Assembly (NCBI GenBank): GCA_014871385.1
Contig: CM026426.1
Location: forward strand, 36,209,918 to 36,273,917
Direction: 5' to 3'
Source: Ceratodon purpureus
Lineage: Eukaryota > Streptophyta > Bryopsida > Pseudoditrichales > Ditrichaceae
Length of the DNA stretch: 64,000 nt
Shown here: positions 30,880 to 61,885 of the stretch, in pieces
Layout of the letters: every line of letters begins with the position of its first letter
Numbering within the stretch: position 1 is the stretch's first letter
Made by a program: the position numbers and the translations under genes
The notes under the pieces: generated by a model
Told to the model about the DNA's origin: nothing
What the model saw: the letters and a program-made list of their open reading frames with translations, nothing else
The model's database searches: none

Positions 30880-31543
30880 TTTAGCTCGATTCGAGCTAAA
30901 TGGTGGTTCAATTACAAAATATAGCACATGACATCCCAGCAGTTTAGCTCAAGTTGAGCTAAACTGCAAGGGGCCCTTGTTGAAAGCTCTATAGTTTAGC
31001 TCGACTCGAGCTAAACTGTAAAGCTTTTACCATGGGCCCCTTGCAGTTTAGCTCGACTCGAGCTAAACTGCTTGGGGGCCATTCTTGAAGGCTAAGCAGT
31101 TTAGCTCGAATTGAGCTAAACTGTAGAGCTCCCACCATGGGAGCCTTGCAGTTTAGCTCGACTCAAGCTAAACTGCTTGGGCTTCAGAAAAAACCACTCA
31201 CAGTTTAGCTCGAGTGGAGCTAAACTGTAGGTGCATCTCCCAAATAGATTTCGGGAGTTACACCTACAGTTTAGCTTGACTCAAGCTAAACTTTGAGTTC
31301 TCCCTTCTAAATCTCGGCAGTTTAGCTCGACTCGAGCTAAACTGTAGCCAAAAGCTACTTTGTACACTGTGGTTTAGCTCGATTTGAGCTAAACTGTGAG
31401 TGGTCAAAATAGCATTTGGCTACAGTTTAGCTCGAGTTGAGCTAAATTGTAGCAATTAATGAACTAATTTTTAAGCACTTTATGTTTTTTAATCATCTTT
31501 TATAGATGGTGGATGTGAGTTTAGCTCAACTCAAGCTAGACTG
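30880..31543. repeat. Array of twelve regularly spaced 21-27 bp palindromes (outer family)
   Basis: Consensus CAG-TTTAGCTCGA-N-TCGAGCTAAA-CTG. Units start (at TTTAG) at 30880, 30943, 30995, 31047, 31100, 31152, 31204, 31270, 31321, 31373, 31426 and 31520; eight of eleven intervals are 51-53 bp. The array lies just upstream of the acceptor of the ParB-like exon, that is, in its intron 1. The spacers are not identical, but several are themselves inverted repeats (for example CTGTAGGTG and CACCTACAG flank 31226-31268). No coding potential. Confidence 0.95.
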
Positions 31544-31949
31544 TTCTTGATTTTTGGGAGATTGACGACGAAATTTTCAGAAATATTTAGTATGCGTCGG
31601 CCATTTTTACTCAAATCCCTCCGTTGTGAATCTGCTAAAACGTGTTCTGCCTGCACAAAAGAAGGCATTTTGAATGGTCAGAACTTGAATCCAAGACTGA
31701 TACAAAGGTTTCACATTTTATCACACTCGTTCCGAAATAGGCGGAAGACACTCCAATAAAGTGCTTCCAATAAGCCCAGTACTCACATACTAAGGCGATT
31801 GTAACTGTAAATATCCAAATAAGCCTATGTTGAAACTACAACACAATGCAAATGACATTAATATGTAATACACAATACAAGGAATATGCTATTGCAACCA
31901 TCTTATGATACAAACATGCACTGACACAAACCTGTAGAGAACCACACAT

Positions 31950-32160
31950 TAAATCACAAACAGACACACACATACAGAAAATGAACAGAGTTCAGAATTC
32001 GAAACCAAACAGACACACACAGAAGACAAACACAATTCTGAATTTGAACAGAAACAGACACACACAGAATACGAAAACAAGACAGAATTCTGCCACAGAC
32101 AGACACACACATAACACATAAAGAGTACGAACAGAAACAGACACACACAATTCAGAATTC
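31950..32160. repeat. CAGACACACACAGAA minisatellite, ~45-bp period
   Basis: Five units each begin CAGACACACACA and continue with an AGAATT/GAACAGAA-rich tail. Period is 37-48 bp. Cys/Val-rich frames on the minus strand are by-products of the repeat. The following 32170-32820 has no gene I can support. Confidence 0.8.
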
Positions 32161-32822
32161 GTCAAAAAAAATACAAGATGCTAATCCTAGACTAGCGAGA
32201 ACATGCAAAAGAATTATAATTGAAGCAAAAAAAAACGAAAAAGCTCAAATGAGAAGACGCTAAATTGCAAAAGTCACTGGAATTGAACTGAAAAAAAACG
32301 AAAAACGAGTAATGTCGACTTTGATACGCACCTGAGACTTCTACTGCATCGTGATTCTCTCCTCCAACAACCCCAAGCCGAATTGGACGCCTTCGTACAC
32401 CGTCAACGAAGTCCGTAGAGGGAGAATAAAACACGAAACAACTAAACCCTAAAGAACCATGAACAGCCCAACTACAAAACACCTGAAAAAGCTCTGTACA
32501 AACCTTCGAACAAGCTCAAAACCCAATCAAAGAACACCTCAAACAACCTCCGCGCAAACAGACTTCACACCATGAAGATACAGCTAAACCCTAAGCCGAA
32601 ACTACACCTAAAAAAGAAGGCGCACACCCTCTGCAAGGAAGCAAACTACTTGAAGGTGCTCACATGCTATTGTATACCCCCGGAACTCGCGCGTGCATAA
32701 CTATCTCTCACTAACACAACACCTCAAAGGAAATGAATTCCCGCCACCACCAAAACCAGCGCGAAAACACCACAGTTAGAGAAATGCAAATGCAAACAAA
32801 GTGCGTGGACAGGGTATGCAGG

Positions 32823-32925
32823 GAGATTGTTCCCCGCCCTCGCGGGGGCCAGTGACCGCGCCGCCAAATCGTGGGGCCCCGTCACCGCGGGGTTCGATGC
32901 CCCGTCACCGCGGGTTCAGATTTTT
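32823..32925. repeat. GC-rich CCCCGTCACCGCGG repeats
   Basis: Two to three copies of CCCCGTCACCGCGGG (with a GGGGCC/CCGCGG palindromic character) lie between 32868 and 32915, ending abruptly at very AT-rich DNA from 32918. This sharp composition break suggests an insertion edge. Confidence 0.6.
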
Positions 32926-34747
32926 TATTTATTTATTTTAACTTGTTATTTTAAATTTGGTTCAACCAATCCTTTTTTTCTTTTTTCAAATATATAAACG
33001 GAACTTTATTTTCTTACTCTTTTATATATATTCCAAAAATAAAATCCTCATTTTATGGATTCAAATGAATTGTCCTACATTAATGGACATCATTGTTGTA
33101 GTATTAATATATGATATTGTGTAATGGTATAGACACTTGAGCAAGCACAAAATCTAAGTAGGCAAATTATTAACAATTTTTAGAGAATTGGAATTTTTAT
33201 ATTTATTCATGAGAAGCAAATATTTGAAATTTTGTAAATATTCATTACTGTCTAATAAGGTGCAAATATACTACTTTAATAATATATTCATGAGAATCTA
33301 ATATCTTTGTACGAATAAGCTTCTTATAAGAGAAACTTAATTTGTACGAAACTAAAAATATTCATGAGTAGCAAATATTCTACTTTTTTTAAATATTCAT
33401 AAGAAGCAAATATGTGCACAAATTTATTACTTTATAACAAGAAAGTAGATTATTTGGTTCATGCGTATATTTTAACTTTATCAATATTAATTGAATATGA
33501 GACGTCTACAAATGTAATTAACACAATAATCCTTTCAGATTTATGAAGTTAATATTTGTTCAAAGACTAATTTAATTTGAATTCACAAGATTAGAGTTTA
33601 AATAATAGTTTATAATTATATTACGAAAGCATCAAATATGAATACACTATTAGCAATGAAAATTAATTTACTATACTCTAATTGAGTACATATTTATGTA
33701 AATGTTATCATCATATTATTCTTAAAATACATATTAGTATAGGAACTTATGTATAATATAACAATATATTGTAGTATACTAAGGTACTCATATATTCATT
33801 AACAATTTAATATTCAATTAAGAATAGTACGAGAATAATAAACGATATTCAAGTATATACAAATCTTAAAATGATATACAAGTATATTCAAGTATATATA
33901 CGAAGTACATTGTTAAAAATAATAGTATTAAATTATAGAATTCAATTCATTTATTATGGCAAATTATTTACATTTTTTAGAAGATTGAATTTTTTATATT
34001 TATTCATGAGAAGCAAATATTTAAACCATGGTATGCCTTGTTTGATTGGCATGGAAATTCAATAAATCTTAATCAATTCATTAACGTTCTACCTTGACTA
34101 ATATTCGTACAATTTTATTACATTCTAATAAGAAAGTGGAATATTTGGTTCATTCATATAATTTTAAAAAACAAAATTCATAATTCATGGATTCAAACGA
34201 AATTTACTACTAAATTTATTATAAAGCATGGAAATATTAGAATACGAAATATACAAATATGAAAGCATCAAATAAAACTCTGATTTTAATTCAAAACAAC
34301 CCTGTTTTGAAGGCATTCCATTCCAAAAATAGTTTACAACCCACACGGGGGACACCATCATCGAAAGTCCCCAAAAAGCATAGTGACCTGTTTTTACATT
34401 TATCGTTGCCAAATATCGTATGATATAACGGTCCTGCTAACTACTTGCTGAAGTCCCCTTCCCATATCTGAGCTGATTAGCTGCAAGAAGTTACACCGTA
34501 GGAGTATATCGAAGATGCCTGCAAGTTCAGGAGCAAGGAGAAAAAGAGGATCAGATGGTATGATGTTTAGGGTTTAAAACCAAAAGGGCAGGTCAAAAGC
34601 AAGGACTCATCCTCTTGACACTCACCACGAACTCAACATCAGGCAATGGAATTTTGCGCAATACATACAGCAACCGTAATCTATTACTATGAAAACATCG
34701 AACTAAGGGCGAGGTTAAGGGTTACGAGGAGATAACATTTCACCTCG

Positions 34748-35086
34748 TCACTCATGTGGTGGGCTCCCCAAATTCCTGCTTCCCTCCTCATTAGAATCAG
34801 CCATAGAGAAGACCTCGCCGGAGGTGGGGGGAAACTTGATGTTGGAAGCGTTCATAATCTCCATTTGCTCTAGAGTATTTGCAAGAGTCCAATCCCACTC
34901 CACACCTGGCTGCATTAGGCATGCAATGCGGTTCCACGCGGGAATGGCTACGCCGCGACCACGGGCGCGTTCCATCGCCATAAACCACAGACGAAGCTCC
35001 TCCACTCCTTGTGGGGAAACAACCACCTCCCACTCGTCTAGCGGGTAACTTGACACCCTAAAACCACCACCCGCCCTCCTCATCAT
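34748..35086 (-). CDS. Accessory 'CWR' family protein, N-terminal part
   Basis: From Met at 35086 (MMRRAGGG) the frame gives 112 residues. VEELRLWFMAMERARGRGVA, then IPAWNRIA, then VEWDWTLANTLEQMEIMNAS and IKFP match the protein at 60092 almost position by position (VEELRPWF, IPAFKYIS, AEWFWSIAHTIELLEISDAS, IAFP). The frame stays open upstream to 35251, but that part overlaps the element terminus, so the Met-x-Arg-Arg start shared with the 60092 protein is preferred. The C-terminal CWR-MPYLG end is absent, so it is a truncated copy. Confidence 0.5.
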   Translation of the reverse strand: MMRRAGGGFRVSSYPLDEWEVVVSPQGVEELRLWFMAMERARGRGVAIPAWNRIACLMQPGVEWDWTLANTLEQMEIMNASNIKFPPTSGEVFSMADSNEEGSRNLGSPPHE

Positions 35087-35240
35087 GGCAAATGAACTAG
35101 AAGCAGATGAAATAGAAGGGAAATTAAGATCGGAACAACTAATTCGTCGCACAAAGGAACTTATGCTTAAGAAGGGGTTCGGGCAAAAAGCCGAATGTTC
35201 CAGAGTAACGAAGGGGACTTTAACCAGACTCGGTAATAGG

Positions 35241-35291
35241 ACTTTGACCAATGTGGACTTTCGAAAGTCCGGATTTACTTAAATGTGACAT
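35241..35291 (-). repeat. Solo terminus of an inner-family element
   Basis: This ends in GTCCGGATTTACTTAAATGT then GACAT. It matches the inner element's right end (61914-61966) including the outer part ACTTTGACCAAT-TGGACT. GGACTTTCGAAAGTCC (35255-35270) is a perfect 16-bp palindrome just inside. No partner terminus was found nearby. Confidence 0.75.
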
Positions 35292-36301
35292 TTTAATTTA
35301 TTATTAAAGAATTAGTTAATGGGATTTTATGCTTGCATAAGCATCTAGAGCATTTGTCGATATCATATATTAATACTACATCTATAGTTATGATCATTGA
35401 TTTAAGACATTGCGTTTGAATCCATGAATTATGAATTTTGTTTTTTAAAATTATATGAATGAACCAAATATTCCACTTCCTTATTAGAATGTAATAAAAT
35501 TGTAAGAATATTAGTCAAGGTAGAACGTTAATGAATTGATTAAGATTTATTGAATTTCCATGCCAATCAAACAAGGCATACCATGGTTTAAATATTTGCT
35601 TCTCATGAATAAATATAAAAAATTCAATCTTCTAAAAAATGTAAATAATTTGCCATAATAAATGAATTGAATTCTATAATTTAATACTATTATTTTTAAC
35701 AATGTACTTCGTATATATACTTGAATATACTTGTATATCATTTTAAGATTTGTATATACTTGAATATAGTTTATTATTCTCGTACTATTCTTAATTGAAT
35801 ATAAAATTGTAAATGAATATATTAGTACCTTAGTATACTATAATATATTATTATACTATACATGTTTTGATACTAACATGTATTTTAAGAATATAATGAT
35901 AAGATATAGAATTCCAGAAACGAAAAAACAAGTCTACACCATTCACGGCGTAATGAACACATTATGAAATAAATAAAGACATAAATAAACATACATGAAT
36001 ATACATACATCATAATTATATCTGACTAAATATTTAGAATAAAGAAATAATTCTAGATTTAAAAATATACCTACCTAGGTCTATCAAGAACTATTCATGA
36101 ACTCACATATAATGATTTGATTTCATACATCATATATAATAATGAAATTGAGCAAAAATACATACTCTAGTATATGGAGATATGAAAATTTGCACCGATG
36201 TACTTCCCTGTATGAACCTTACTCACGAAATTCAAATAGGTTCAAACAATTTTTGATTTAATTTTATTCCATATACGAGATATTTAATGTCCCTAGAAAT
36301 G

Positions 36302-36392
36302 CCTTAACCCTGTACTCTAAACCCTTCACCCTGGACCTAAGACCCTAAACCCTTAACCCTTAACCCTCTACCCTAAACCCTGAACCCTGATA
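36302..36392. repeat. Degenerate telomere-like repeats (CCCTAAA strand)
   Basis: A run of CCCTAAACCCTTAACCCTTA-type units with variants (CCCTGTACTCTAAA, CCCTGAA). It resembles plant telomeric (TTTAGGG)n. A comparable block in the opposite orientation sits in the inner element at 50105. Confidence 0.8.
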
Positions 36393-36977
36393 GAAGATGA
36401 TAAGTTCGGGGCCAAAAGTCAACATTCTATCTGGCGCTATGACGTGTCCAACCCATCCCATTTGATACAATTAATGCACCAAATCTGCACCTATCTAAAG
36501 GGCCGAGAAGTATAGAAAGTTGTATTTCCCGCGCTTGCTCACACCCCCAAATGTGGAGGGACGAATGGTCATGCCTGATTCCCGCCTATTTTCAAAACTC
36601 AAGCGGCATGAAAACGGTCACACGTAAGGGAATGTCCTCTACAATTGTCCCCGATCGAAGTCTTTTCTCTACTCACTTGCTTCTCTCGCGTGCAGGAGCT
36701 CTCGGGGCTCTCTTGGAGGTTGTTGTTTTCTGGGCGGAAGCTGTATTGTGTCGTTTCTCTTGTACGTCTTCTCTTTAGTTTTCTCCGATCATCAGCACAC
36801 ATCATTGATTTTTGGTTGTTCTATGCTTGCGATTGTTTCAATTCTTGGTGTATTAGCAGTGTCTCTCTTTACTACTAGGAAACGTTTGAGAGCGGAAACC
36901 GTCAGCGTACTCTGAGTCTGCGACTCTGAATTCCGACCATGTGAGCACCTATTAAAGCGCCGACTTTTGCGAATTGC

Positions 36978-37049
36978 AGTTTAGCTCGACTCGAGCTAAA
37001 CTGCACTGCCCATAGTTCAGGCACAGTTTAGCTCGAGTCGAGCTAAACT
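36978..37049. repeat. Two palindromes upstream of the outer transposase gene
   Basis: Perfect copies with arms CAGTTTAGCTCGA and TCGAGCTAAACTG start at 36978 and about 37023. They lie about 100 bp before the ATG at 37143, upstream of an acceptor-like TTGCATTCCAG, so probably in a leader intron. Confidence 0.9.
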
Positions 37050-37142
37050 GCGCTTGGGTTAAGATCTCTAACTTGCAGATGAATTATCTTCAAGGAGTAT
37101 AATATGTTCTCATAAAATTGGATCTGTTGCATTCCAGGTACA

Positions 37143-39977
37143 ATGGATTACTCCTCAGATGACGAGGTACCGGTTGAAGCGCCCTTAAACCCAGACCTTC
37201 CGGACTTTGTGGTTGTACCCTCAAGATTGTGGCAAAACAAGACTGTAATAATTTACAGTGACGACAATATCCCGTTAGCAGAGGGTTTGATCCGGAACCC
37301 ACGGTTCAGCTTGGTATCTGACACGGTTGGGCCCCTTGGTGATTCCGTTGTCGTCGTCCAGGTATCACGTTCGTTAGTCGAAGAGGAGTCAAAGGATGAT
37401 TGGAGGTACTCCTTCAAAACGTGGCCTATCAGCCACGTCTATCTGGATGGAGTTAGCCTAGAGCACCATAGTCAACGTGATGTATATAACCGTTGGGCTG
37501 CGGAGCTTAACCAATCCCTGGGAGATCGTACCCGATCGTATGATAACTCCTCTAGGAATACCCCCCCACCTATATCACGTCACGCTGAGTTTCCGATGAC
37601 CTAGCCCTCGATCAACTCTGTAGCGGCAAACACGTGTTGCGCTCAGCTGTGCGTCCAACACTATCCCAGAGATAAAATCTCTACTCTACGGTCGCGTATG
37701 TACGACAAGACCATAGTGCAGTTCCGTAACCACATAAAACTCGACGTGCATAGACAGATTCACAAGAATTCAGTGGGGAGGAGTGTGGTGACTCTGGAGG
37801 GCATAGATGTTTGCCCCTTTGCCTGGATGAAGATTATGGGAGTGAGCTCCAGTACATTTCATAGAAATGCCAAGTATGCTGCTGCTGGTTTCGAAGCTCA
37901 ATTTCACGGTAATACTGGTTTACGTAAACCTAGAAATCACACAGTGGTAGCAACTGCCGTCCTAGAGGCCATCCTTGACAGGCATGCCGACCACATGCCC
38001 CACAAGAGTCGTGTTCTGCCTTCAAGGGAGACAGTTGTTGCTAAAGTTCTGCCTTCCAGTTTCAAATGGAAGGAACAGATCCCGATCCTCGATGAACATC
38101 TAGCGGACTATGGATTGCCTCCTATGTCCGCTTCTAACTTGAGCAAGATCAAGAGGCTTAGCTATCCAGAATATTACGCCAAACAGGCAAGAGACAACTT
38201 CGCTCGTTGCTCAAAATGTGATGAGTTCCAGTCCCAGAAGAAGTTGACGTCAACAGGCTCTCAGGCATGCCTGTTATGGTCGAAGAAAATGAGGCTGCAC
38301 AATGACTCTGCAATGGCGCATAGGGACTTGTACTACCTAAATCGATTCAGGTCGAAGGCTACTCCTCATGAAGTTCTTACAATTATGCATGACAAGATGG
38401 ACCACTCCAAGACAACATCGCCGGCCTTATCCCACAAGGTCAAACACTTAGACGGTCTCATGAAGCTTCCTCTCGCTGTCACGGGAATGCTTGCTCATGG
38501 GCATGTGGACCAACGTTACGCCCATTATGGCCTTGACATTTACTCACACGACGCTAATTACACGGTCAGATCGTTTGCGAAGCTCCTTCGGGATCTTAAA
38601 TCACCCCCAAAATCCACCTCCAGGGAACTCTTTCAAGAAAATCCGTCTCACCCATTGTATGCCGCGCTTTTGCATGGTTCAAAGATGTGTTTGGATCCTC
38701 TTGGCCCTCCTCGTGAGGTTCCTGTTGCTGCTAAACCCTTGCATCCTATTCTTAACGTCCAAATGGATAATGCTGTCAGCGATAACAAGAATAGATTTGT
38801 ATTTTCATTCTGGTCCTTATTAGTCGCGAAGCGGGTGTTTCGTGAAGTGTACGTGAACTTCATGTTGGTTGGCCATACTCATGACGATATTAATGCCCTT
38901 TTCGGGCGATGGAGCATGGCTTTGCGGAGGGAGGACTTCCCCATAGTACCTCTCCTCATGAAGTCCTTCATGAAAAATGAAGCTTGACCAACAATTCCTC
39001 ATCTCATTTAAGAGGTCCCAGATTTCAAGAAATCCATCGCGGAGTGGATGCTTGATGGCGACGATACGTTAATGGGTCACACTAAAGCTCATCAGTTCAA
39101 ATTCTATGTAGATTCTTCAGGATGCCCAGTCATGAAGTATAAAATCTTCTGTCACGACGACGACTGGTTGCCAAAAGGAGATGGTTGTGGCATCAAGTTG
39201 TGGAAGGAGGATTCAGAAGGTCGATCTTTATGGCCCCGTGGTGTTCCTAGTGCCGTGGCGGCTTGCGAGATGCGGCACCTGCCTGATGTGATTAAGGGCT
39301 TGTCGGGTTTTGTGGATCATTGGGAGAGGCTATCTTCTGATTCAGTCCAGTCCAGAAGAATCTATGAGCCACTCTCATACTATTGGAACAATGTTAAAGA
39401 GGCTATTTCCATCCCCTTTGATGCAGTCCCCACCTTGGAGCATGGTTTTTGGCCATCCACTCGGCTTGCTCACTCCGTCGAAGACGAGTTTCAGGAAGAT
39501 GGAACTTTGCGCGAGGAGTTCGCAGAGGATGATCACATTGTTGGTCACAAACGAGATCGCCCAAGACCGTCATTCCGTGTTGCGCGAGACCTTTTTGCAG
39601 GGTACTTCTTAGCGTTACGACCCGACGATGAAGACGATCGTCCTTTCTGGCTTGCGAGGGCCTTGACTGACCCTAATTCGAACCCTGACCTCCCGAACAC
39701 GATCCAAGTAGAGTTCTACCGTCAAATTTCCCGAGATGAAAATGTTTTGAAATTCTATACCGGCTGGGATGTAGATGGGAGACTTCGTTGGACAGTTGAG
39801 AAGGATGTACCCGAGTCGTGGCAGAGTACTGATGCAGTCATAACAGCTTGGAAATCAAAAGTTAAATATGTCAACGAGCGGGGGCTTGGCAAGGATCCAA
39901 CGCTGAAGATTCCACTCAAACAATTGGACATTATAAAGGCCTCCTTGGAGAGATTTGTTTCTCCGGATTCTGAATAA
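37143..39977 (+). pseudogene. DUF7869-type transposase-like protein, outer element
   Basis: One continuous frame of 945 codons with no frameshift but three nonsense codons: TAG 37602, TGA 38985 and TAA 39009. The protein begins acidic (MDYSSDDEVPV). A helix-turn-helix-like part near codons 215-275 has VTLEGIDVCPFAWMKIMGVS. A CSKC zinc pair follows (about 356-359). The RNase-H-like core carries MHDKMDHSKT (about 415-424), GHVDQRYAHYG, NVQMDNAVSDNKNRFVF (about 538-554) and VGHTHDDINALF (about 576-587); these Asp residues are the likely metal-binding set. The C-terminus (AGYFLALRPDDEDDRPFWLA) looks like a small beta-barrel reader domain. It is divergently oriented to the ParB-like module and is the presumed mobiliser. 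Confidence 0.75.
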
Positions 39978-40029
39978 ATATGTAGCTTTCAAGTTGGTAG
40001 TCTTGAAGTTCTGAATTTAGTCAGATTAC

Positions 40030-40060
40030 TTATATGCCACATTTAAGTAAATCCGGACTT
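40030..40060 (+). repeat. Left TIR of inner element with TTAT duplication
   Basis: TTAT at 40030-40033 followed by the 27-bp TIR, the exact reverse complement of 61940-61966. A second GGACC motif follows at 40073-40077. Confidence 0.92.
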
Positions 40061-40256
40061 AAAGGTAAAAACCGGACCTTGGGTACACTTTTTGCATGAT
40101 TATAAGACCGTGGGATCACACCATGATGTCGTGGGCAGTATCGCAAAAATGCACTATATACTGGTTTTCAGCCAAAGTTCAGACAATGTTGCACAAATTG
40201 AGCTTAATATATATTTATTGAAGGGTATGTTTGTTTATAGACGGTGCAGTGGGATC

Positions 40257-42180: not shown

Positions 42181-42418
42181 TTGCGGGGTTAGTTTGTTTG
42201 CCTGCAAAAGAGAGCCAAATCGTTAATAAGAATCATCCTTGCAGAACTCACGTCATGTAAAATCAAATAGTGTGGCGAGAATTACCTTCTCTAGACGATG
42301 CACATCCTTTTTCATTGGTACAATTGGTACATTTTTCTTGCTTTGCGTAGACGTCGAAGACTTTAACCCTTGAGATCAAAAGAAGACATTTCTGTTAGAA
42401 CACTGAGACGAGCGTATG

Positions 42419-42586: not shown

Positions 42587-42670
42587 AAGGAGATGATATA
42601 AGGATGAAATTTTTCCTTCTGGATCGTAAGAGTCCATAGAAAATGCCTGAAAAGGATTACTCTGATTCTG

Positions 42671-43900: not shown

Positions 43901-43996
43901 GTAAGGTGGAAGAGTGAATACGAGAAGCCCGTAGGTGATAAAATTACGACAATAAATGGAATAAGACATTGAAAGCAGAAAGGATTTAGGGAACGA

Positions 43997-50100: not shown

Positions 50101-50104
50101 GTTT

Positions 50105-50760: not shown

Positions 50761-53700
50761 ATCATTGATTCCGCGGCGTCAATTGCGGGCAACAGGGACC
50801 GAGGACGATCTCCAACACAGGTCCGGTTAGTTTCCTCTCCCTTAAATTGCTTGCTTGATCAACTTGATAATTCGTAAGAACTGCTAAATGACGAATCTTG
50901 CATGGTCAGAAGAGTAGTCTTACTTGCTCCCTTGATTCCTGACTGATTTCCTATAGACCATAGGTTCTTGCACAATTAATGTGTTCCAGCAATTATTGAT
51001 GCGCTCGAATGTTCGCGGCGTCTGGATAGGCATTCTTGTATTAATTTTGCGAATGTATGTCGGAACACGGAACGCAACTAACATCCGGATAGCACTCTAA
51101 TTGAGCGTAAACTTCCATATTGTCACTAGGTCCCGAGTATCGTCCAGGGATTCAATAGTGTTTCACCAAGTAGTTACTTATAATAGTTCTGAGCCTTGCC
51201 ACTGCTCGGATAGTGTACCCGGAACGTAACTACTCGACTATCTCTCTCTCTCATTCTCTCTCACATCAGGTGTTTCGTCCACAAACCCCAACGTCTCCGA
51301 ACAGTTACCGTCTCACAACTATTCTAGAATACTCTGGATAGCAGGTCACACAGACGATCCCTTCCGATCCGTGAGACTACAACAACAAACCAATCCGGCT
51401 CTGGGAGAACGAGGATCCGATTATCCCTAGGCGACCCGTACCACGTTAGGAATCCCTCTCTCACAGTGTACGAAACCTCTTCAGAAGTTCAGGGAGCCCG
51501 ATCAAGTACCCCTTGATCCGCTTCGACCCTAGCGACGGCTATTCCGCGTGAGGTTGGGTAATGGACGGAACAGTGAGGCTTCACTCCTACGACAATCCAC
51601 TAAATCTTTCCGCTCAATCCCATTACCTTTCCGGTTCGGGTCTCGTCACAACTCCCATCACCTTCCTATCCGAGCTACAGCGGAACTCTCATATCCTTCC
51701 CACTTAACTGGAAACCATGCACAGTACGTGCAAAACACGAATACTTTACTGATAAGGAATATAGGGAGAAAACATGCAAAACGAAGACCCGGCCTGCATC
51801 GCCTTCCCTGTTTAAGTAAGCAGGGGCTTTCACAAAAGCGGCGGCGCCGGCAGTTCAATCCCTAGTTATCTACCTAGAATCCTACTTTACGACTAAACCG
51901 GATCTCCCGATCCGAATCTGCTCCTATAAATCCAGAAAGTGACGGCCAGTTGCAGCGAGAGGAATCTACCCGATCTTCGTCTTCTTGTGGCTCTCCTGCT
52001 CTCGGTCCTTCTCCTTCGACCTGGTCATCCGTGGCTCGGATCCTCCTGCCTTTGCTGCCCGCTCCGCCTGACGCCTAGCACTCCGTTCCGCTTTTGACTC
52101 CTTCGTCTGGGCCTCCAAGGACAGCCGGGTAACGATTCGGTTCTTGGGAGAATTGGGAGACTTTGGCAACATATGCGCGGGAGGGGTTCCGGTCGTAGGG
52201 GTCTGAGTCCCAGTTCCGGCTATCCCAACCGGAGAGCTCGCATAGGTTTCCCAGTCGGACCCGGAAATCGTAATGGGGCCCTTCTCTCTCGGATCCTTCC
52301 TCTTCCTCAAAACTCTCCGAGCACCGGAACTGTCAGCAGGGGAGTTCACCACTGGCGTTCCGGTGGGGGTAGGAGTCACCGTTCCGGTCTTGGCTGTGGA
52401 TGAAGGGGTAAGTGCCCCCTCCTGCGTCACTGGGGTCCGTCCGGTTGGTGAAATAGCTCGTCCCCATTCCGCTCCCGCTATCTCCCCTTGGTAATTCGCA
52501 ATGATCACCTCCGATCCGAGTCTTGGAAGAGCAGCCGGCTGCACGGGCCGGGTTACCTCTTCCGTAAACGTACTCTCTTCGGATCGCCTAACGGTGACTG
52601 TAGTCCCTGTCACCTCCGCCGGACCGGTGGGGATCGCGCAGCCCTGCTGAACCGTGCTGGCTCCGGGTGATGCCACCTGTCCTTGGTGTTCCCGGATCAT
52701 ATCTGCGATTTTCCGAGCCGGCTTGAAGATATCCGCGTCGACCGCCATCTGCTCCTCAAGCTGGAGGTTGCGCTCTATTGGGGTCCGGAACCCTACCCCA
52801 CGAGATTCCCCTACAACGGTCCGGGAGGGAGATCCATGAAACGGGTGGTTCCGACAAACGGTTCCGACGCTGGGACTTCCGACTCCCGGATTGAGCAACT
52901 GCCGAACCTTCTTCAGAATCTGGTTCATCGAGTGCTCGCATTTGGAGAGAATTGTGATGATCTTCTACTTGTTCTCCTAATCTGCAGGCTGCAATACATT
53001 CTCGTCGAACAACCGGGCGTTGTTGACTACAGCACCCAAATTCCCCACCAACTTCCGAAGCTCACCCAAGGTCTCCTCTTGCTCGGCATGGAACTTCCGG
53101 ATCTCCTCGCTCTTCGTCGTCAGTTCCATCGTAAGCTCCTGCAACAGAAGCTCCAACTGCTTCTTCTCACTCCGAAGTTTCGGGGCATCCTTCAAAAGCT
53201 CTACCTCTCGGATCACCTCCTCCGGTAAACAGCCCCTAAGAGACGTACAGACCCTCCTGAACAGTGTCTCGATCCGATCGTAAGAGGCTTGCGCCCGATG
53301 AGTTTCCTCCCGAATTCCCCGGAATATTTTAACCGGAAATCCCCGCTCGGAACTGACCTCCTTCCGTTCCGTATCTCCCCGGGCCGTGGAGGGCTCTGCG
53401 TGCTGCGATGCAGCGCGTTTTGATCGTGACTTGGAGTGGGCCTTCGTAGCTCCGGGATTTGGAATGATCGCTGTATCATCATCCCGTTCCGTGGACGCTG
53501 TATCCGAGATTTCGCCGTGCGGTTCGACATCCATATCTGGTGGAACCTCAACAAAGGTGAGGAAGTTCTCCGCCGTCGTATAATCCTCCTCCTCCCTCTC
53601 CCTCAGCAAACTATACGAGTGGTAAAGGTGGTAGAGAAAAGGGCTGATCGGAGTCGGCTTCTTTCCGATCGATGGCACCATCTTCTGCACGGTTTCTGCT

Positions 53701-55107
53701 ATAAGCGCGGCCCAATTCACCGGACGTTCCCCCGTGTACGCTCCGAAGATGGTGTTCCCGACCGTAATGGTGACCTGTTCCGGTTTCAGCGGATACAGGA
53801 TCGGAACGAAGAAGGCTGAGACCTGTCTCTGTCTCCTATCCTTGCAGGCGTCTATCTCGTATCCGTTATTCTTATGGATCTTCCCGTGAAACCTATCCTG
53901 TACGTACTTATCCGTCCGGGTTGCCCAAAGGAGTCTGTTCTGCTCGAAGTCGTAAGTTTCCGCCCACCGTTCCGCACTCCACAGCGTGGGCTTGCCCCGG
54001 ATTGTATTGTCCCACCTATTATCCGGTCTGTCCAGGATCTCCCTCACCATCGCCTCATTCTTCAGCAACCACGGTCGTGATAGCAAACCCTGGCACCTCA
54101 TCCGGGTGAGATCGTCAATCAACTCTTCCATATCCGACTCAATCACCGGAGTGCCGGGACTAAGAACTCTACACTGAACGTGCGCCATTTCTACGTCTCA
54201 CTTCTCTCCCTTTGCAATCCGACAGCAAGAAACCCGGCAATCCAATTGCCAGTGAATCGGAAAAGACAAGACACCTCACCGCTCTTTCACTCTCTACTCC
54301 CAGTCCGCAAAAAGGAACTCCAAACCCTAACATCCTCGCTTATATACCCAGGGCATCATAAACGCTGCGGCGGCCCGTAGTTGCAACCGCCACCGTACCG
54401 AACTAGACGCCTATCCGAGTCATGATGACTTCCGCGTCATTTCGGATCCTAGACGCGGTTACAGTAACGGTCAGTTCTCGGATCGTCAACCCTTTCCGTG
54501 TTTTCTCTTCCGAGTTTCTGGCATGAAGGTTCCGAGAATACTTCCTGCGTTAACTGTTTTAAGGTTTCTGGAGTATCCGGTTTGCGTTAACTCCTAATGC
54601 AGCTAGTGTCTAGCTAGTTTTTACCTAATTAACCAAAAAAATGAAAAATTAATGGAATACTAACTCCGGATGAGGCTCTTCCGGTTTATTCTCAATTCCT
54701 TGGATCCCACAATGTAGATAACATGCATTGCAATGTTAAGTGCATCACAGTCATTCCAATGGCATTTTCTAATATAATTTAGAAGCGGTTTCTGCAGTTA
54801 ACACGTTCAGCTTCCGCCGTGTTGCATCATTGACTCCGCGGCGTCCACACGGGGAAATACGGACCCAAATTGACGTCATTCACAGGTATTACACAAAGTT
54901 TCCCTCTCCACTATATTCTTTGCTTAATTACGTTGATAAGCCGTAAGAATTGCGACTTCGACAAATCTTGCTGGGACAGACTTTTTTGCTTGCAGTCCGG
55001 GTTATTGCCTATTTTCCTTACAAAAACTGGTTCTTGCACAAGTAATGACTTCCAGCAAAAATTAGCACGCTCAAACCCCTGCGTCTTGCCTAGGATAAGC
55101 ATTGATA
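50761..55107 (-). mobile_element. Probable nonautonomous LTR-like element nested in the inner transposon
   Basis: Diverged direct repeats flank it: 50761-51045 and 54826-55107, sharing ATCATTGA-TCCGCGGCGTC, GTTCTTGCACAA and further blocks over about 280 bp. A second partial copy of the right repeat's left part begins near 55121, so the right side is a tandem repeat. Inside is a long minus-strand frame (51966-54188). No reverse transcriptase, integrase or clear primer-binding site is seen, and LTR edges are not exact. Inner-family palindromes are absent from this interval, supporting insertion. Confidence 0.5.
51966..54188 (-). pseudogene. Long unknown ORF of LTR-like element, two in-frame stops
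   Basis: One 741-codon frame from MAHVQCRVLSPGTPVIESDM to the stop at 51966, broken only by TAG at 52977 and 52965. The first 210 residues are globular (TLWSAERWAETYDFEQNRLL; NWAALIAETVQKMVPSIGKK; PFLYHLYHSYSLLRERE) and resemble the gag-like or 'putative plant transposon protein' frames of plant repeats. Next come a disordered acidic/basic linker and a long coiled-coil (LRSEKKQLELLLQELTMELT), which continues across the stops (KIITILSKCEHSMNQILKKV). It ends in a Pro/Thr/Ser- and Arg-rich tail. A gag-like structural role is the best guess. Confidence 0.5.
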
Positions 55108-55330
55108 TATTTGCGACTCTAGATAACATACTGTATCGCATGTTAAGTGTTTCAAAATCATTTCAACAGCAATTTCTAATGCATATTTTTATGTGGTTCC
55201 TGCGGTTAACGCTATCAGCTGCCGTTAAACAAACATGCCAGTTAATGTATTATCACATGACATTCTAGAGTCCACTAATTACTCATTGTACGAACGAGTA
55301 TTCATCAAAACGATTCCGGATCACTTGCAG

Positions 55331-55706
55331 GATCGTAGGATCCTACGATCATTCTAATTTTTGAGAGGACACCGATGGGATCGTAGGATCCTACGATCCA
55401 ATGAATGTTTTTTGCATCCGTTATCAACATGAGAAGATCGTAGGATCCTACGATACCATTGGTGGTTTCGCATCCACCAAAGGCTTTACGAGATCGTAGG
55501 ATCCTACGATCTCTGCGCTATAGTGTCTTCCATGGTACCAGGATTCAGGTCGTAGGATCCTAGGATCCATTGCTCAAGGGCATCCGCTAACTTAAACGTG
55601 GGGATGTCAACCTTACCTTCATCTGCTATCTTAGAGAGGGTCCACGGTGATAACCGTTATATCCAACGTTTTCTCTGTCCGTGGAAGATCGTAGGATCCT
55701 ACGATC
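55331..55706. repeat. Six inner-family palindromes upstream of the transposase
   Basis: Copies start at 55331, 55379, 55436, 55492, 55548 (variant) and 55687; four consecutive intervals are 48-57 bp. An acceptor-like ATACTTGCAG precedes the ATG at 55797, so these probably lie in a leader intron, as in the outer element. Confidence 0.95.
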
Positions 55707-55796
55707 TCATCACTACTTCTTTGCTCAAAAAATTCCATTTTCTGCATCATTTATTCTAACAGAATTGATTTCTTTCATACTTGCAGGTGATCAAAT

Positions 55797-58700
55797 ATGT
55801 CAACTAGTGTTGGAGAAGACGATGACTTCATGGATCCCACGTGTAATAACTACGACTCTGACACGGAAGAGCGGCAAGACCCATTCATACCTAGGTTGAA
55901 TGTGTTCATCTGCTATCCTGGCTATGGCATTGTTGGTCATGCCGTTGTCATTGAAGTGAACCCCATTGGGTCTTGGCTTGGAGTCGATATTGAGAACACC
56001 ACCCCTGGGATGACCCTCCTTCGTCCCATTGAGATAACTCCGATGGCGCTCTACCTGCCTATGCAACCTTTACAGACGGACATCTCCGTCTTGGCCGATG
56101 CGCTTGGTAGAACGGTACTTTGGGAGACAAGAAATGTGATCCGAAATACCCGCGATGGAGAATCCTCGAACTCCACAAGTTCCCTACCATATGTCCCTCA
56201 GGCTGAGTGGGTTGCGAAGGTCGTGAAGCGGTTAAACGACAATGGGGATACCTTGGCCTCTGGACGAATCAACTTCGTCCGTCCAGAGGATCCTTTCGAG
56301 GACCACACCTTGGGAGTGGGATACATTGGAGTTACAGTGCTGGACGTCTTCCTCGGGGATCCAGGGGAAATCATGAGCCATCGTAGGTGGCCGATAGCGG
56401 AATGTGTATTTGAGGGTGGGCATAGGCTTAGTGATTCAGTTGACTATTACACTCTTCATCCTGACGGTGTGGACACCCAGACGCATCTCGGAGGCCGCGC
56501 AAAAGCCCCCTATCGATTTATTCGGCGCAAAAAGCGGATTGACGAGAAACTCAATCTCTATGCCAAGAAAACTCTTCCCGTAGAAATTCAAGCTCTGTAC
56601 TCTCAGCGGTGTTGTTCCAGCGAATGTGTCCGCTTGTTCAGGCCCCAGGATACACTTGTCATTCGACAAAAGTACTGGTTGAAGGACTTCGACGCACGCC
56701 GGGATTATGCACGGTCTGTGGGTGGCTAGTTCCACTATGTGGGAAGTAATAGGAAGCAGAAGTACGTCACGTTGAATGGAATGGATGTATGCGCTACGGC
56801 ATGGTACAAGATCCATGGTATACCAAAATCGACATTTCACGAATACATGAAAGAGTACAAGAGAGGTGTCGTATCTTCGACGCACGGGAACAAGGATGTC
56901 AAACGGCCCCGCCTTGGAACAGTGCAAGCACTTGGGACAGTCACAGCCATCATCAATGAGTCAACTGATCTTATGCCGAATCAGATGAGAATGATAGCAC
57001 CTAGCAGGATGGACACACTGAAGTTTCTACCCTCTGGTCACAGTTGGTCCAACAAGACGCCACCCAAGTACTAAATACGAACAACACGCCCTCTTGTCAA
57101 TTCAGTGTATCTTTCATGGGACATCTGCTTGAAAATCCTGACGTAATAGGATCCTACGATCCGACGACTTGGAACATCGGTTCACCTGATCTTTAAGGGG
57201 GTTCACAAATTACTGTAGTGACCTTTTATTATTAGCGATCCATAGTGACTTGCTACCACTTACTCTCCTACGTGATCGTAGGATCCTACGATGTCTAAGT
57301 CGAAAAGAAATGTTTACACAAAATTGCCATCTACTCTAGGATCGTAGGATCCTACGATCTCTAAGTTGGGAGGAAATGTTTACACAAAATTGATGGTGTA
57401 TTCTGGGATCGTAGGATCCTACGATCTCTCTAGATTAAACATCTTTAATATTGCATTCCTGCTTCATTTCCACATTGCTAATGCTTATGAAGAGTACAAG
57501 TAGGGTACATTTCTGACTAGCAGATTGTTTGGATTGATATGCAGATCAACTTAGAATTTGGGTTACCAGCGGTGTCTCAATCAGCCATAAGTAGGCTGAA
57601 GAAGCAGCACTTTAAGAATGTCGCAATCAAACCCGTTGGGAGTTCCTTCGCAAAGTGCACAGAGTGCGACACTCTTCTCCAGTACATTGACCGATCAGTG
57701 AAGGGCTCGCCAGAATACCTCAAGTTAGTGAAACAGAAACAGGACCATTGCAATCTTCAGTCGTCTTGTAGGCGTCTGTACCACACTTGGAGGGAGGAGT
57801 CAAAGAGGCAGAAGGGCGAAATACTTTGTATTATCCACGACAAAATGGATACCGCAAAGACGGCTATTCCTCAAATGCGCGTTTCCACGAAACATACTTC
57901 ACCGTTGGGACAGTTTCCTATGAATGTCACGGGCATAGTTACGCATGGGCACGGCGACGGTGCCTACGCCCACTACTCGACAGACTTGTGGCCAGGCGAC
58001 TCTAACTACACTATCTCCTCGCTTGCGAGACTGCTTTGCGTCTTGAGGAACCACCTATTCGTCAATCTGGCAAACTGTTCCCTCATGAGCCCGCTAACTC
58101 CTTCTTTCGAGCCATGCTCAAGGGAAAGTCCAGATGTTTTGACGTACTACCCCCGGTAACGAATAACTCCAGTGAACGTGTTCCGCTCCCAGTGAAACTT
58201 TATTTGCAGTTGGATAACTTTGCAAAGGACAACAAGAATCAATTTCTGATGGGGTTCTTGTCGATGCTTACGTATCGGGGTGTATTCAAAGAGATCCAGG
58301 CTGGTTTCTTATTGGTGGGGCACACGCACGAGGATATTGATGCCTACTTTAGCCATCTGTCTAAGACCTTGAAGAGTCAGAATACTTACATTGTTGCGGA
58401 CTTGATGTTGGCCTTCATGAAATCCCAGGAATTGAGTTTCATGCCCGAATTTGTTCAGGAGGTTGCGGATTTCAAATCGTTCGTGGAAGGCTATCTCATT
58501 GATGGAGCGGATGTTCTCGTGGGTTTGGGAAATATGCACCTCTTCAAATTCTATGTAGACAAAAGCGGGTGGCCCATCATGCGATTCAAGGAGTTTGCAG
58601 TTGACCAACACTGGCTACCTAGGAACAAGCCGGCTATCCGTCTATTCAAGGCGGATGCTGATGGAAATCAGAAGATACCATCTGGCATCCCCAATCCAGT

Positions 58701-59346
58701 CCCTTTCAAGAATTTGTGGGGTGATGAGACTGTTGCGTCCACTGGCAACCAAGACAGGGCAAGAGAACAAGTTTCCAAAAATCTCGTTAAGAAGTCATTC
58801 CTCAAGGGTGGAATTCAAGGTTACATCGAATTTTGGGAACGCGGGATGCTTGAATGTTCCGGATTTTGCAAGGATTTTCCTCCGTATATTGATTACTGGA
58901 AGGGCATTCTCGCAGAATTGGAGAAACCTCTTCCTCCAACCGTGACGACCTTGGTAGAGGGTTTCTAGCCTAATCATGACTGGTCAGGTATGGAGAGTGC
59001 ACCTTTATGCCTCCTCCCCGAGACGGATGTCACACCTGAGGATGAAGAACCCGAGCCCTATTGTGGCCCCAAGTCCGCTCAACCGAAGCCCGCCTTGAAC
59101 CCATGGCGAGATGTCCTACCAGGGGCTTGGGTCCTACTTCATCCCTCCGACCCAGATATTTATCCCGTCTACTTAGGGAGAGCATGTTCAGCAGTCAATC
59201 GTCATGAACGAAATGCGGACTATAGGCAGTTGAGTATCAAATTCTGGGAGCCTAGAAATCGCCACACCGACCCGAAGACGAAGTACGAGAATTGCTGGGA
59301 CGCTACTTGGGTACGAGAAATCGACGACGAGAACAAGTTCATGTAA
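55797..59346 (+). pseudogene. DUF7869-type transposase-like protein, inner element
   Basis: Starts MSTSVGEDDDFMDP, acidic like the outer copy. The first exon (to about 57067) has one TAG (56727). It ends after a DNA-binding-like part with VTLNGMDVCATAWYKIHGIP and HGNKD, colinear with the outer copy. An intron with four palindromes follows; exon 2 begins at about 57524. The core has CTEC (zinc), IHDKMDTAKT, GHGDGAYAHYS, LDNFAKDNKNQFLMGF and VGHTHEDIDAYFSH, the presumed acidic active-site set. A frameshift lies near 58040 and TAG at 58966. The C-terminal reader-like part is PGAWVLLHPSDPDIYPVYLG. Pairing with the outer protein is clear throughout, but identity looks low, so the two elements belong to different families. 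Confidence 0.72.
57140..57430. repeat. Four inner-family palindromes in transposase intron
   Basis: Copies start at about 57144 (left arm worn), 57273, 57340 and 57407, the last two intervals 67 bp. The outer transposase has no intron here. Confidence 0.92.
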
Positions 59347-59511
59347 CTTCAGTGCTCTTTGCAAAGTCCACAACAAAAGAAAACCCCAAGACACGGAAGA
59401 TCCCAAAGCAAGATCGAGTAAACGCATTGGCTAACCTTGATGCTGCTAACCTTATGGATCCGTAGCCCTCGCATAATTTATCCCCCATATCCATCCAGAG
59501 TTTTGTCGCTA

Positions 59512-59830
59512 GATCGTGGGATCCCACAATCTCCTCTACGTGGTAGCTTTGAGATTATTCAGTTTTAGAAGTGCCTCGTTTTGCCCAGGCGTACTCATAT
59601 AGAGATCGTAGGATCCTACTATCTCCTCTACCTGGTTGCTATGAGATTATTCAGTTTTAGAAGTGCTTCGTTTTGCCCAGGAGTACTCGTAAAGAGATCG
59701 TAGGATCCTACGACCCTGTTGAACATTCGCTACATCTGTTCGGATTTTACTTTTTTTAATCAAAGTGCACTCGTTTATGCTGCTTTTGCCTCTGCCTGGT
59801 TGCTGTGAGATTATTCGGTTTTAGATGTGC
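59512..59830. repeat. 92-bp tandem repeat, each unit with one palindrome
   Basis: The unit is a palindrome (starts 59512, 59604, 59696) followed by TCTCCTCTAC-TGGT-GCT, GAGATTATTCAGTTTTAGAA and TTGCCCAGG-GTACTC. A third, worn unit continues to about 59830 without a clear palindrome. It shows how palindrome number can grow by tandem duplication. Confidence 0.85.
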
Positions 59831-60010
59831 TTCTTTCCTTCAGCTGTCAGCTAGTTAAGCTAGTCCTAGTCCTAATAATGTTATCTTATCGCTCAGTAGG
59901 AGCCTAGGCGCTACTAGGATTGGTGAACGTTGGCTAGTAGACGTCCAGAAACCCTAGAGAAGTGGATTACTAGAACTTTTACCAGTTTAGTAGACAAACT
60001 CCAGCCGGAT

Positions 60011-60078
60011 ACTGTAGAAGAAGGTCGCATACTGTAGAAGTTAGTCACAAACTGTAGAAGTTAGTCGCATATTGTCAA
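60011..60078. repeat. 20-bp tandem repeat before accessory gene
   Basis: Units starting ACTGTAGAAG begin at 60011, 60031 and 60051, with a partial one at 60071, directly upstream of the ATG at 60092. Confidence 0.85.
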
Positions 60079-60091
60079 ATATTTTGTCGTT

Positions 60092-60889
60092 ATGGGGAGG
60101 CGGGGTAGCAATGTATGGTATCCGCAGTATCAGAAGACACCTGCTGACGTCGAGGAGCTCCGGCCATGGTTTAGGGCGGTGGTCGCCCGTTCTCGCAACA
60201 CAGCTATTCCTGCTTTCAAATACATCAGTGAGATTCTGCAGCTAGGTGCGGAGTGGTTTTGGAGTATTGCTCACACCATAGAGTTGTTGGAGATCTCTGA
60301 CGCTTCCGGCATCGCCTTTCCACTGACATTCGAGGAATCCGAGGAGTCTGAGGAGTCCGAGAGTGTTGGCAGCGTTCACTTCAGCCACACAGTGGAGGTG
60401 TCAACGCAAACCATGTCAACTGCAGGGTGGCTCCGCATTGTTGGCGAAGCATACGACATCTTGGAGGGTGCTGGAAGTCGGTGCTCTGGCCAAGATCAGT
60501 GGTGCGGAGGGAACGCAAGCCCGCAGTCCACGTATTCGTTGTTTGGATCCGTGCATCCATCCGTCGATACTGGGTGTAGTGCTGTCCGAGCCAAGTCCTC
60601 CAAGCCGGATAACAATTCACTCGTCAACGCCGCACGCACTTCAGCAACAAGGTGACAACATCCCCCGGTAGGAGATACCTCTCTCACCTCCGATTCGGAT
60701 AATTTCAACCCCGAGCTTTCTGAGGCAGCGGCTTCTAGCAATTGAGACCACACTGCAGACGAAGCCGACCGTCTTGAGCTGACTACAGAGTCGGAGGAAT
60801 ACAGAGATTGCTGGAGAGCTATGCCCTACTTAGGGCCAAATTTCCTGACCCCATCTTTCAAGGAACTGTATCCTCCTGGTCAAAAATAA
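60092..60889 (+). pseudogene. Accessory 'CWR-MPYLG' family protein, inner element
   Basis: A frame of 266 codons to TAA at 60887, broken by TGA at 60653 and 60743, with no frameshift. It starts MGRRGSN, then VEELRPWFRAVVARSRNTAI, IPAFKYISEILQLGAEWFW, AHTIELLEISDASGIAFP, an acidic Ser/Glu run, and a disordered part. After the stops it ends EEYRDCWRAMPYLGP. Relatives: 35086-34748 (N-terminal part) and 7359-6520 (both halves). The conserved Trp/Leu pattern suggests a small helical domain that may contact DNA or another protein. It is the last gene before the right TIR. Confidence 0.55.
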
Positions 60890-61559
60890 GTTCTCAAGTA
60901 TCACCATCCACCATCAGCGGCCTTCGTTGGCATTCACTACTGCACATACTCGGAGGTTCTAATCTCGGGGCAAGCTTTTTGGTTTTTTTTGTCTGCATAC
61001 TATTGGCTTGTAAGTATTTAGAAGCTGCTTACAAGTTGGAAGTGTGAGCACTGGCGGGTTCTTCTTGCACCTGCTCACTTTTCATCCCCGGCAACGGTTC
61101 TCTTCTACACGGGAATCTGAAGACTCTGTCAATCAATACGACATTGTTCACCTTAATTTTGCCATTCCCGGATTAGTCTCATCTAGTTGAAATGGGTTGA
61201 AGTTTTAGTTAGCCTGAGTAGATAGTACATTAGTTGCTTAGGGTAGCTTTCATTTTAGTCCTTTTTAGTTTTGGACACATTCACGCCCCTTTGTTCCTTT
61301 TGGTTAGTTTCTTCTGCTCTTTTGGACTAGGTGGTGACTGTGAGCCGTTTCAGGACTTTTCCCGAGCTTGTCTCGTTCCCGGAGGTTTTCCCTCTTTTCA
61401 TGTCCTTTGTTTCCTCTTTTTCCGATCCATTGGATTGGTTCAGTGAGTTTCCGGCTTTGTGCTGGTTTCTTACGATCCTGAAAGACGCTGTACTCCGATT
61501 TGGATTTTTCTTTACAGTTCACAGAATCCAAATAATGTGATGTGTTTTTACACCTAGGT

Positions 61560-61885
61560 TGGCAAACATCGTAGGATCTTACGGTCCTGCTTACTACTTG
61601 CCAATATTACAATACCCACATGTTTGATAACTTTCGTATGAATACTCTTGGAGTCTTCTTTACTGTTTATGTAATGTTCTAACGTGAAGTGTTTATATAT
61701 ACCTACTTTCCATGGATAGTAGGATCTTACGGTGTTTTACAAGTTGCCAATCTTTAATATCCACATGCTTGATAAGTTTCGCACATAATCTTGAGCAATG
61801 TTTGCTGTATTTTTCATTTCTAACCTTTATCGTCTCTCTCAATTTCATAAAACGGTTAGGTCTTTGCTGGATCATATGATCCTAC
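61560..61885. repeat. Three worn inner-family palindromes, right subterminal
   Basis: Worn palindrome copies lie near 61568 (CATCGTAGGATCTTACGGTC), 61713 (GATAGTAGGATCTTACGGTG) and 61871 (GATCATATGATCCTACGATT). They are more degenerate than the intronic copies. The 60900-61560 stretch holds no recognised gene. Confidence 0.8.

Follow-up and report, generated by a model that had tools for sequence, protein, structure and literature searches.

What reads the regularly repeated palindromes that mark two transposons, one nested in the other, in the genome of the moss Ceratodon purpureus? The window analyzed here, a stretch of 64,000 nucleotides of contig CM026426.1 (C6:36209918-36273917 of the 362-Mb genome used in all genome-wide searches), holds an outer and an inner element, each of which encodes a DUF7869 protein and carries a palindrome of its own: TTTAGCTCGANTCGAGCTAAA (odd, 21 bp) in the outer element and GATCGTAGGATCCTACGATC (perfect, 20 bp) in the inner one. 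This feature is real, specific to its element as far as sites have been placed, and conserved. Judged from sequence, we put at about one half the probability that the arrays are operators of an element-encoded regulator, the likeliest binder being a ParB-like protein encoded by both elements.

Two nested elements, each with its own palindrome

The two elements are delimited by terminal inverted repeats (TIRs) and target site duplications (TSDs) as follows.

23715..62874: outer element, with about 17.2 kb of its own DNA (23715-40033 and 61967-62874)
23715-23741 and 62848-62874: TIRs of the outer element, perfect, 27 bp; TSD CAAT
40034..61966: inner element, nested inside the outer one
40034-40060 and 61940-61966: TIRs of the inner element, perfect, 27 bp, unlike the outer TIRs; TSD TTAT

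Both are families of DUF7869 transposons with 27-bp TIRs and 4-bp TSDs. With up to three mismatches, the outer TIR has 192 forward and 200 reverse matches genome-wide and the inner TIR 119 and 114, the reversed controls having none; many pairs stand about 17.5-19.5 kb apart in both families among the 100 matches listed for each. A 4-bp TSD is a feature of the Sola1 superfamily, and both window copies (CAAT, TTAT) have one.

The inner palindrome occurs 19 times exactly and 33 times with up to three mismatches, fewer than the 37 or so copies counted in the initial annotation, and, as claimed there, it is confined to the inner element, with no match in the window outside 40034-61966. The outer word, put there at about 20 copies, is likewise real and specific; it is properly a 21-bp odd palindrome with eight exact copies and 26 with up to four mismatches, all in the outer element's own segments and none in the inner element. 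Markov controls yielded 0-2 palindromes of comparable size per window (10-nt arms, up to one mismatch), and conservation drops sharply beyond about 22 bp (inner) and 25 bp (outer).

Genome-wide, 609 exact copies of the inner and 2,293 of the outer palindrome were found, against none for either reversed pattern and a composition-based expectation below 0.001 for each. Among the matches listed, which are the first 50 for each word, 42 inner sites fall inside two elements whose TIRs are both listed, the other eight being within 17 kb of one listed TIR; 41 outer sites likewise fall in two elements with a full TIR pair listed, and eight are about 7 kb from one listed TIR. The proposed confinement to TIR-matched elements agrees with all 50 inner and 49 of the 50 outer sites listed, which are in such elements or within 17 kb of one; one outer site (C1:15616582) has no listed TIR nearby.

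Placement of the palindromes relative to genes

The core genes of the two elements are given below by their open reading frames (ORFs), followed by the palindromic sites.

37116-37604, 37605-38987 and 39012-39977, plus strand: outer DUF7869 ORF segments, probable transposase (second segment PF25273, E 1.1e-32)
55791..59388, plus strand: inner DUF7869 ORF segments, probable transposase (PF25273, E 7.2e-35; tblastn of relatives)
29379..30854, minus strand: outer ParB-like gene, ORF segments for its N-terminal part and its ParB-like domain (27 homologues; ParB/Srx-fold matches)
27767..29233, minus strand: outer ParB-like gene, ORF segments of its C-terminal part (E 2.1e-48 and 5.6e-39 with profile A3)
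45491..46893, minus strand: inner ParB-like ORF segments (profile A1, E 6.5e-8 to 45494-45976)

30880..31540: outer array, TTTAGCTCGANTCGAGCTAAA and variants, steps mostly 51-53 bp, directly upstream of the ParB-like ORF
36980..37047: outer pair with a step of 47 bp, 96 bp before the DUF7869 start
29247..29366: three outer palindromes in the intron that follows the ParB-domain exon; a GTAAGT donor stands about 30 bp before the first
23870, 24578, 24695, 26627, 27718 and 27789 (span 23870..27809): scattered outer palindromes, 1-3 mismatches
62190, 62344 and 62805 (span 62190..62825): outer palindromes close to the right end, degenerate with 4 mismatches
40936..40955: single inner palindrome about 0.9 kb in from the left end, with 1 mismatch
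42419..42583: inner array, 4 sites, upstream of a NIF-phosphatase-like ORF
43997..44727: inner palindromes, 7 sites
46938..47305: inner array, 7 sites, steps 56-60 bp, 96 bp upstream of the inferred ParB-like gene start
55331..55706: inner array of 6 sites, 91 bp before the DUF7869 start
57274..57426: three inner palindromes in a probable intron that separates DUF7869 ORF segments
59512..59715: inner array preceding the small ORF 60065-60655; 3 sites in units of 92 bp
61567..61889: pair of inner palindromes close to the right end, degenerate with 3 mismatches

Both genes are in view in six array-bearing families, where a palindrome lies no more than 300 bp upstream of the inferred start of every ParB-like and DUF7869 gene (12 of 12, at 22 to 237 bp). 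A random position and strand would place a site there in 11-35% of cases; the product, 5e-9, is that of related families which are not independent. The initial annotation had the palindromes outside exons, and indeed none of the 33 inner sites overlaps an exon inferred from ORFs; two of the 26 outer sites do, and in a further family, 678, three sites fall within the transposase ORF, downstream of its inferred start.

Spacing, spacers and array turnover

The steps of 51-53 bp at 30995-31426 in the outer element and of 56-60 bp at 46938-47286 in the inner one were correctly read by the earlier annotation, with one 66-bp step besides in the outer array. Spacing is not an element-specific trait, however: arrays of one element differ, and spacing belongs to each array, not to the family. 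Family-specific spacing is ruled out by the outer family, with 47 and 52 bp, and by family 966, with 26, 41 and 54 bp; helical phasing was likewise rejected as a general rule, steps of 25, 26, 41, 47, 52, 54 and 56-60 bp having no shared phase.

The spacers, held to be unrelated, are so by eye at 46938-47286 and 55331-55548, and are related in several other arrays. Tandem units with 86-93% matches make up 42419-42556, 57274-57429 and 59511-59711; the arrays at 43997-44727 and 46938-47305 share stretches that are 77-82% alike, palindromes counted in; and the outer array contains a 105-bp higher-order unit with 84% matches. By eye, outer spacers are found again inverted in other copies, and in two loci (L055 300-760, L058 220-620) inter-palindrome spacers occur in either orientation, as though exchanges between palindromes had flipped them. 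The outer DUF7869 promoter has two sites in the window and nine and eight, at 47-48 bp, in two other copies. These shifts in site number, together with spacers in both orientations, indicate that arrays grow and rearrange while the palindrome is kept.

Conservation between copies and in independent sources

Palindromes changed significantly less than their flanks in three of five comparisons, whose p-values are rough as cells of related copies are not independent; alignment columns filled in fewer than 70% of rows were dropped, and three copies (L045, L046, L048) aligned over part of their length only. Between the inner copy of the window and one on C1, palindromes show 0/161 differences as against 152/3,046 outside (p 8e-4). 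Minority cells amount to 2/760 versus 51/3,363 in the inner DUF7869 promoter (eight copies, p 0.0035) and to 41/819 versus 362/1,926 in the outer ParB-like promoter (four copies, p 5.5e-24). The inner ParB-like promoter (eight copies, 7/1,099 versus 42/3,520, p 0.13) and the outer DUF7869 promoter (three copies, 15/198 versus 62/573, p 0.22) gave no significant difference.

Further evidence comes from 27 homologues of the outer ParB-like protein, known as proteins, some of which may be from the same or related mosses. Eight of them hold an exact in-frame reading of the outer palindrome at one intron position, implied by the protein sequences: FSS[ST]RAK in P0122, P0128, P0130 and P0142, and LAR[VLF]EL in P0126, P0127, P0132 and P0135. 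Near readings occur in four more (P0131, P0137, P0140, P0143). The readings start 4-9 residues past a conserved exon end (Y/F-x-V), and the counterpart in the window is the intron with the GTAAGT donor, where about 30 bp separate the donor from the first palindrome, which is in the same frame. No such reading was found among 140 other proteins compared; composition shuffles gave exact readings in 0/50 and a looser FSS pattern in 1/50.

The palindromes are not a common viral or prokaryotic word, a reading that we considered and rejected: neither has any match in viral contigs, and the outer word, the one searched in contigs of 84,980 prokaryote species, was found in three stretches. Two of these, each with a single site, represent the same Rhizobium locus in two species. 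The third, L066 (CADCWO010000071.1), is a 4.3-kb contig binned as an uncultured cyanobacterium of the Synechococcales, with a 963-aa DUF7869 ORF 65% identical to the outer one and palindromes 86 bp (1 mismatch) and 461 bp (exact) upstream of its first ATG; non-coding likeness to the outer element in blastn is limited to the palindromes. It is most likely moss DNA in a metagenome bin. Two proteins, P0140 and P0147, also bear cyanobacterial labels and are probably moss sequences.

Palindromes in other DUF7869 families

Eight further DUF7869 families, named by ORF length, were sampled in part and make ten with the pair in the window. Arrays are present in seven (outer, inner, 942, 966, 980, 678, 879), with these words besides the two above.

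Families 942, 966 and 980: TTTAGCTCANNNTGAGCTAAA type, steps 25, 26, 41, 54 or about 84 bp
Family 678: CGTCGGCNNNNNGCCGACG type
Family 879: imperfect GAGGCATATGCCTC type, steps roughly 60-90 bp

Families 942 and 980 have TIRs of one type, so that 980 may be a subfamily of 942. Their TIRs differ from the outer ones at 4-5 of 27 positions, and a search with the 942/980 TIR gave 20 and 13 matches, with no pairing that would give element lengths. The strict test for arrays asks for perfect 7-nt arms, which the imperfect palindromes of 879 also escape; the tolerant one (9-nt arms, up to two mismatches) gave 7 alike sites in 879, 15 in 678 and 47 in 942, as against at most 4 in 661, 2 in 652 and 1 in 471.

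A short DUF7869 segment (about 74 columns, 19 distinct sequences, 980 not shown apart) gave a midpoint-rooted tree in which the inner family groups with the 678 type (support 0.94) and the outer with 942 and 966 (0.89); the array-less 661, 652 and 471 are sister to the outer/942/966 group (0.87), and 879 stands outside. Half-sites follow these groups: CGTAGG/CGTCGG in inner/678, TTTAGC in outer/942/966, none in the array-less group and GAGGCAT in 879. In family 661, the 2.5 kb upstream of the ParB-like gene (L040 and L063, upstream of 14458 in the joined stretch) contain repeated words of the CACCGCTTCACAGCCCAACACAC type. The genome holds 1,398 candidate DUF7869 loci, all 150 of those scored passing the cut-off, and 14 control genomes yielded none. 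Three successive matches are spaced exactly 2,312 bp apart (C6:84407513, 84409825, 84412137).

The DUF7869 and ParB-like proteins

The DUF7869 protein is very probably a transposase, because its model (23 sequences) has the strand and helix order of an RNase H-like fold with conserved acidic positions and matches the catalytic cores of mariner and integrases, as expected of a DDE/D enzyme; the mean pLDDT of the model is 57, and residues 1-199 are unreliable.

The ParB-like protein is predicted to have a ParB/sulfiredoxin-like N-terminal fold. Part of the inner ORF (46063-46893) resembles a 678-family ORF (BLASTP E 1.4e-4). As to the central helix-turn-helix DNA-binding domain of ParB proteins, the C-terminal half, scanned in 12 members, gave no Pfam family shared by two of them (best E 0.03, a winged helix-turn-helix) and nothing in the PDB. 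A methyltransferase part suggested there by eye (LRMEFYLELL..F..PGE...G.F.G.KCMLAA, with DFR instead of DPPY) is not claimed, Pfam and PDB giving no support and PHROGs a match in 1 of 12 members (E 0.17).

Accessory genes and other features

Both elements share a gene set made up of DUF7869, the ParB-like gene on the opposite strand, a NIF-type phosphatase-like gene and a related small ORF; in the inner element, further arrays lie about 190 bp ahead of the phosphatase-like ORF and about 380 bp ahead of the small ORF.

25614..26204, minus strand: outer NIF/FCP-type phosphatase-like ORF (PF03031, E 1.8e-6)
41546..42232, minus strand: inner NIF/FCP-type phosphatase-like ORF (PF03031, E 3.3e-11)
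60065..60655, plus strand: inner small ORF (MGRRG...), related to window 34748-35278 (E 3e-18) and L038 398-865 (E 3e-90); no match in a Pfam scan

Stretches of the outer element at 34383-35302 are 82-89% similar to the inner right end (61537-61977) and include a TIR-like word at 35265-35291; a 476-bp inverted repeat (33749-34224 / 35388-35863) adjoins this inner-like part. An older inner-like fragment seems to have been fixed in the outer family, because several outer copies carry the TIR-like word inside, among the matches listed. One inner-family copy with both TIRs (C6:110505126-110524267) ends 41 bases short of the contig end (110.5 Mb). Degenerate telomere-like repeat arrays (CCTAAAC / GTTTAGG) occur at 36302-36390 in the outer and 50095-50162 in the inner element. 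Elsewhere in the window, a minus-strand open frame of 1001 aa (1543-4548) looks by eye like a hAT transposase.

What may read the palindromes

The palindromes may be docking sites for a dimeric DNA-binding protein encoded by the element, lying mainly in promoters and introns, through which one protein would control the whole element by way of sites at its own genes. The candidate is the ParB-like protein, transcribed opposite to the transposase, which could load onto the palindromes, spread over or stay on the adjoining DNA, and switch the element genes together. The outcome might be protection from host silencing, as with VANC or bacterial VirB, or feedback repression, as with plasmid KorB. 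We infer protein binding at the sites and the ParB-like identity of the binder, and either direction of regulation would fit. The initial annotation had already taken the palindromes for dimeric, family-specific sites of an element protein; that view gains from three of five conservation tests, from one half-site type per transposase clade and from sites upstream of both core genes in six of six array-bearing families with the two in view, and loses from the candidate standing of the binder and the three DUF7869 families without arrays.

Several observations weigh against a ParB-like operator system. Neither test found a palindrome array in 661 (17 kb), 652 or 471 (8 kb each), and 661 has a ParB-like gene nonetheless. 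The ParB fold match spans residues 310-425 only, with a Z barely over the 7-8 of models without a clear match, and Pfam ParB is not matched. GERRxRA is the CTP-binding arginine motif of ParB; it is absent here, the conserved word in a 16-sequence alignment being INGQHSVAAS, so that CTP-clamp behaviour is doubtful. In 678 (E 0.012, probability 3.7%) and 879 (E 0.0023, probability 12.7%) the ParB-like assignment comes from weak profile alignments and motif reading, and 8-kb stretches of 980, 652 and 471 showed no ParB-like match. Gene starts were chosen from ORFs, not transcripts, the ORF end being used for the outer and 678 ParB-like genes, and placement covers a narrow sample of 50 of 609 inner and 50 of 2,293 outer sites. 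Finally, the transposase is present in every array-bearing family and could bind the arrays instead.

This last point leads to the main alternative, which we regard as unlikely: that the palindromes are sites of the DUF7869 transposase, bound by its N-terminal part in transpososome assembly and promoter autoregulation. Subterminal repeats of En/Spm-type elements are bound by their transposase, half-site type tracks the transposase tree, and a few sites do lie near the ends (outer 23870 and 62805 within about 160 bp; inner 61567 and 61870 within 400 bp). Most sites, however, are internal and clustered 5' of genes and in introns, the TIR words by eye contain no palindrome half-sites, and 661, 652 and 471 have the transposase without arrays.

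It is improbable that the arrays capture a host transcription factor driving the element promoters, with families switching factors. The position 5' of genes would suit such a factor, but it should have sites elsewhere, whereas 49 of 50 outer and 50 of 50 inner sites are in or within 17 kb of TIR-marked elements among the matches listed (the other 2,802 sites not being listed). Perfect palindromes of 20-21 bp also exceed typical plant sites in size.

We give little credence to neutral evolution of the arrays, as tandem repeats that unequal exchange between palindromic units would spread and homogenise. Site numbers of 2, 8 or 9 at one place, related and inverted spacers and the two conservation tests without significance are in keeping with such turnover; yet isolated single sites are also kept, including the intron position implied in divergent homologues, L066 retains the palindrome without other flanking similarity, and all 12 core genes have one. 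Very improbable, too, are replication or segregation sites (parS- or iteron-like) of an extrachromosomal stage read by the ParB-like protein: a ParB fold with palindromes recalls bacterial partition pairs, but many gene starts are occupied rather than one locus, no ParA-like or replication protein was found among 19 window ORFs scanned with Pfam, and the window copies have TIRs and 4-bp TSDs as in ordinary cut-and-paste insertions.

Relation to known systems

The VANDAL transposase is Mutator-like, and the VANC reader removes DNA methylation at its arrays; the elements here have a DUF7869 transposase, and no Mutator-type or VANC Pfam domain was found in the 19 window ORFs scanned. In Arabidopsis, VANC recognizes a family-specific short motif that is densely arrayed in introns and in non-coding DNA upstream and at the ends; these arrays evolve through tandem repeat gain and loss, and the target motifs of VANC21 and VANC6 differ (PMC5735166). 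The likeness that the initial annotation drew to VANC remains a good analogy as regards non-coding, tandemly evolving, family-specific arrays, and differs in that the reader of VANC motifs is known to be element-encoded, whereas here it would be a ParB-like candidate, and in that VANC motifs share one orientation, the sites here being perfect palindromes (PMC5735166). Its other comparison, with the subterminal motifs of CACTA/hAT elements, fits less well because sites are mainly 5' of genes and in introns, few being subterminal.

A parallel in gene content is Sola1-1_Ec32, a giant 21.5-kb transposon of Ectocarpus with an accessory gene for a protein with ParB-like and DNA methyltransferase domains, which, according to its authors, may bind and modify its own element (PMC12477816). 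As here, the ParB-like gene is on the strand opposite to the transposase, and its product of 1,104 aa compares with a 1,118-aa ORF in family 879; the methyltransferase domain has no confirmed counterpart in the moss. The available text describes no cognate DNA sites, and the main text of that article does not use the stem "palindrom" (PMC12477816); the moss elements have arrays.

Among bacterial systems, KorB of plasmid RK2 is a ParB-type regulator on a mobile element with a palindromic operator, as we propose here, and the KorB OB oligonucleotide contains TTTAGC-G-GCTAAA, with the same hexamer half-site as the outer clade (window 30880-37050), possibly by chance (PMC11790492). KorB belongs to a bacterial plasmid, has a silencing role and forms a CTP-dependent clamp, whereas the protein here is without the arginine motif. 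VirB, also related to ParB, is an antisilencer working from parS-like palindromes that lie in promoter regions; it is bacterial and counteracts H-NS, and the available text does not describe dense arrays (PMC10770331), in contrast to the eukaryotic arrays here. In the open-licence literature we found nothing joining DUF7869 with a transposon, and, for ParB-like proteins and palindromic arrays, such sites are described in none of the titles or opening lines of abstracts among the papers listed.

Implications

More tentatively, and with some doubt, we suggest that a eukaryotic transposon lineage runs a complete ParB-type regulon, in which an element-encoded ParB-like (possibly ParB-methyltransferase-like) protein and clade-specific palindromic loading sites before the core genes would keep the element open against host silencing. 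The palindromes and their candidate binder offer a directly testable protein-DNA pair in an abundant group of transposons. If the proposal is true, the arrays would provide the DNA sites missing so far for the ParB-like accessory proteins that giant transposons of algae encode, and the palindromes would be a simple marker for sorting giant transposon families. Control through dispersed, family-specific arrays would then have arisen more than once in plant transposons, and ParB-type gene control would operate in a eukaryotic nucleus.

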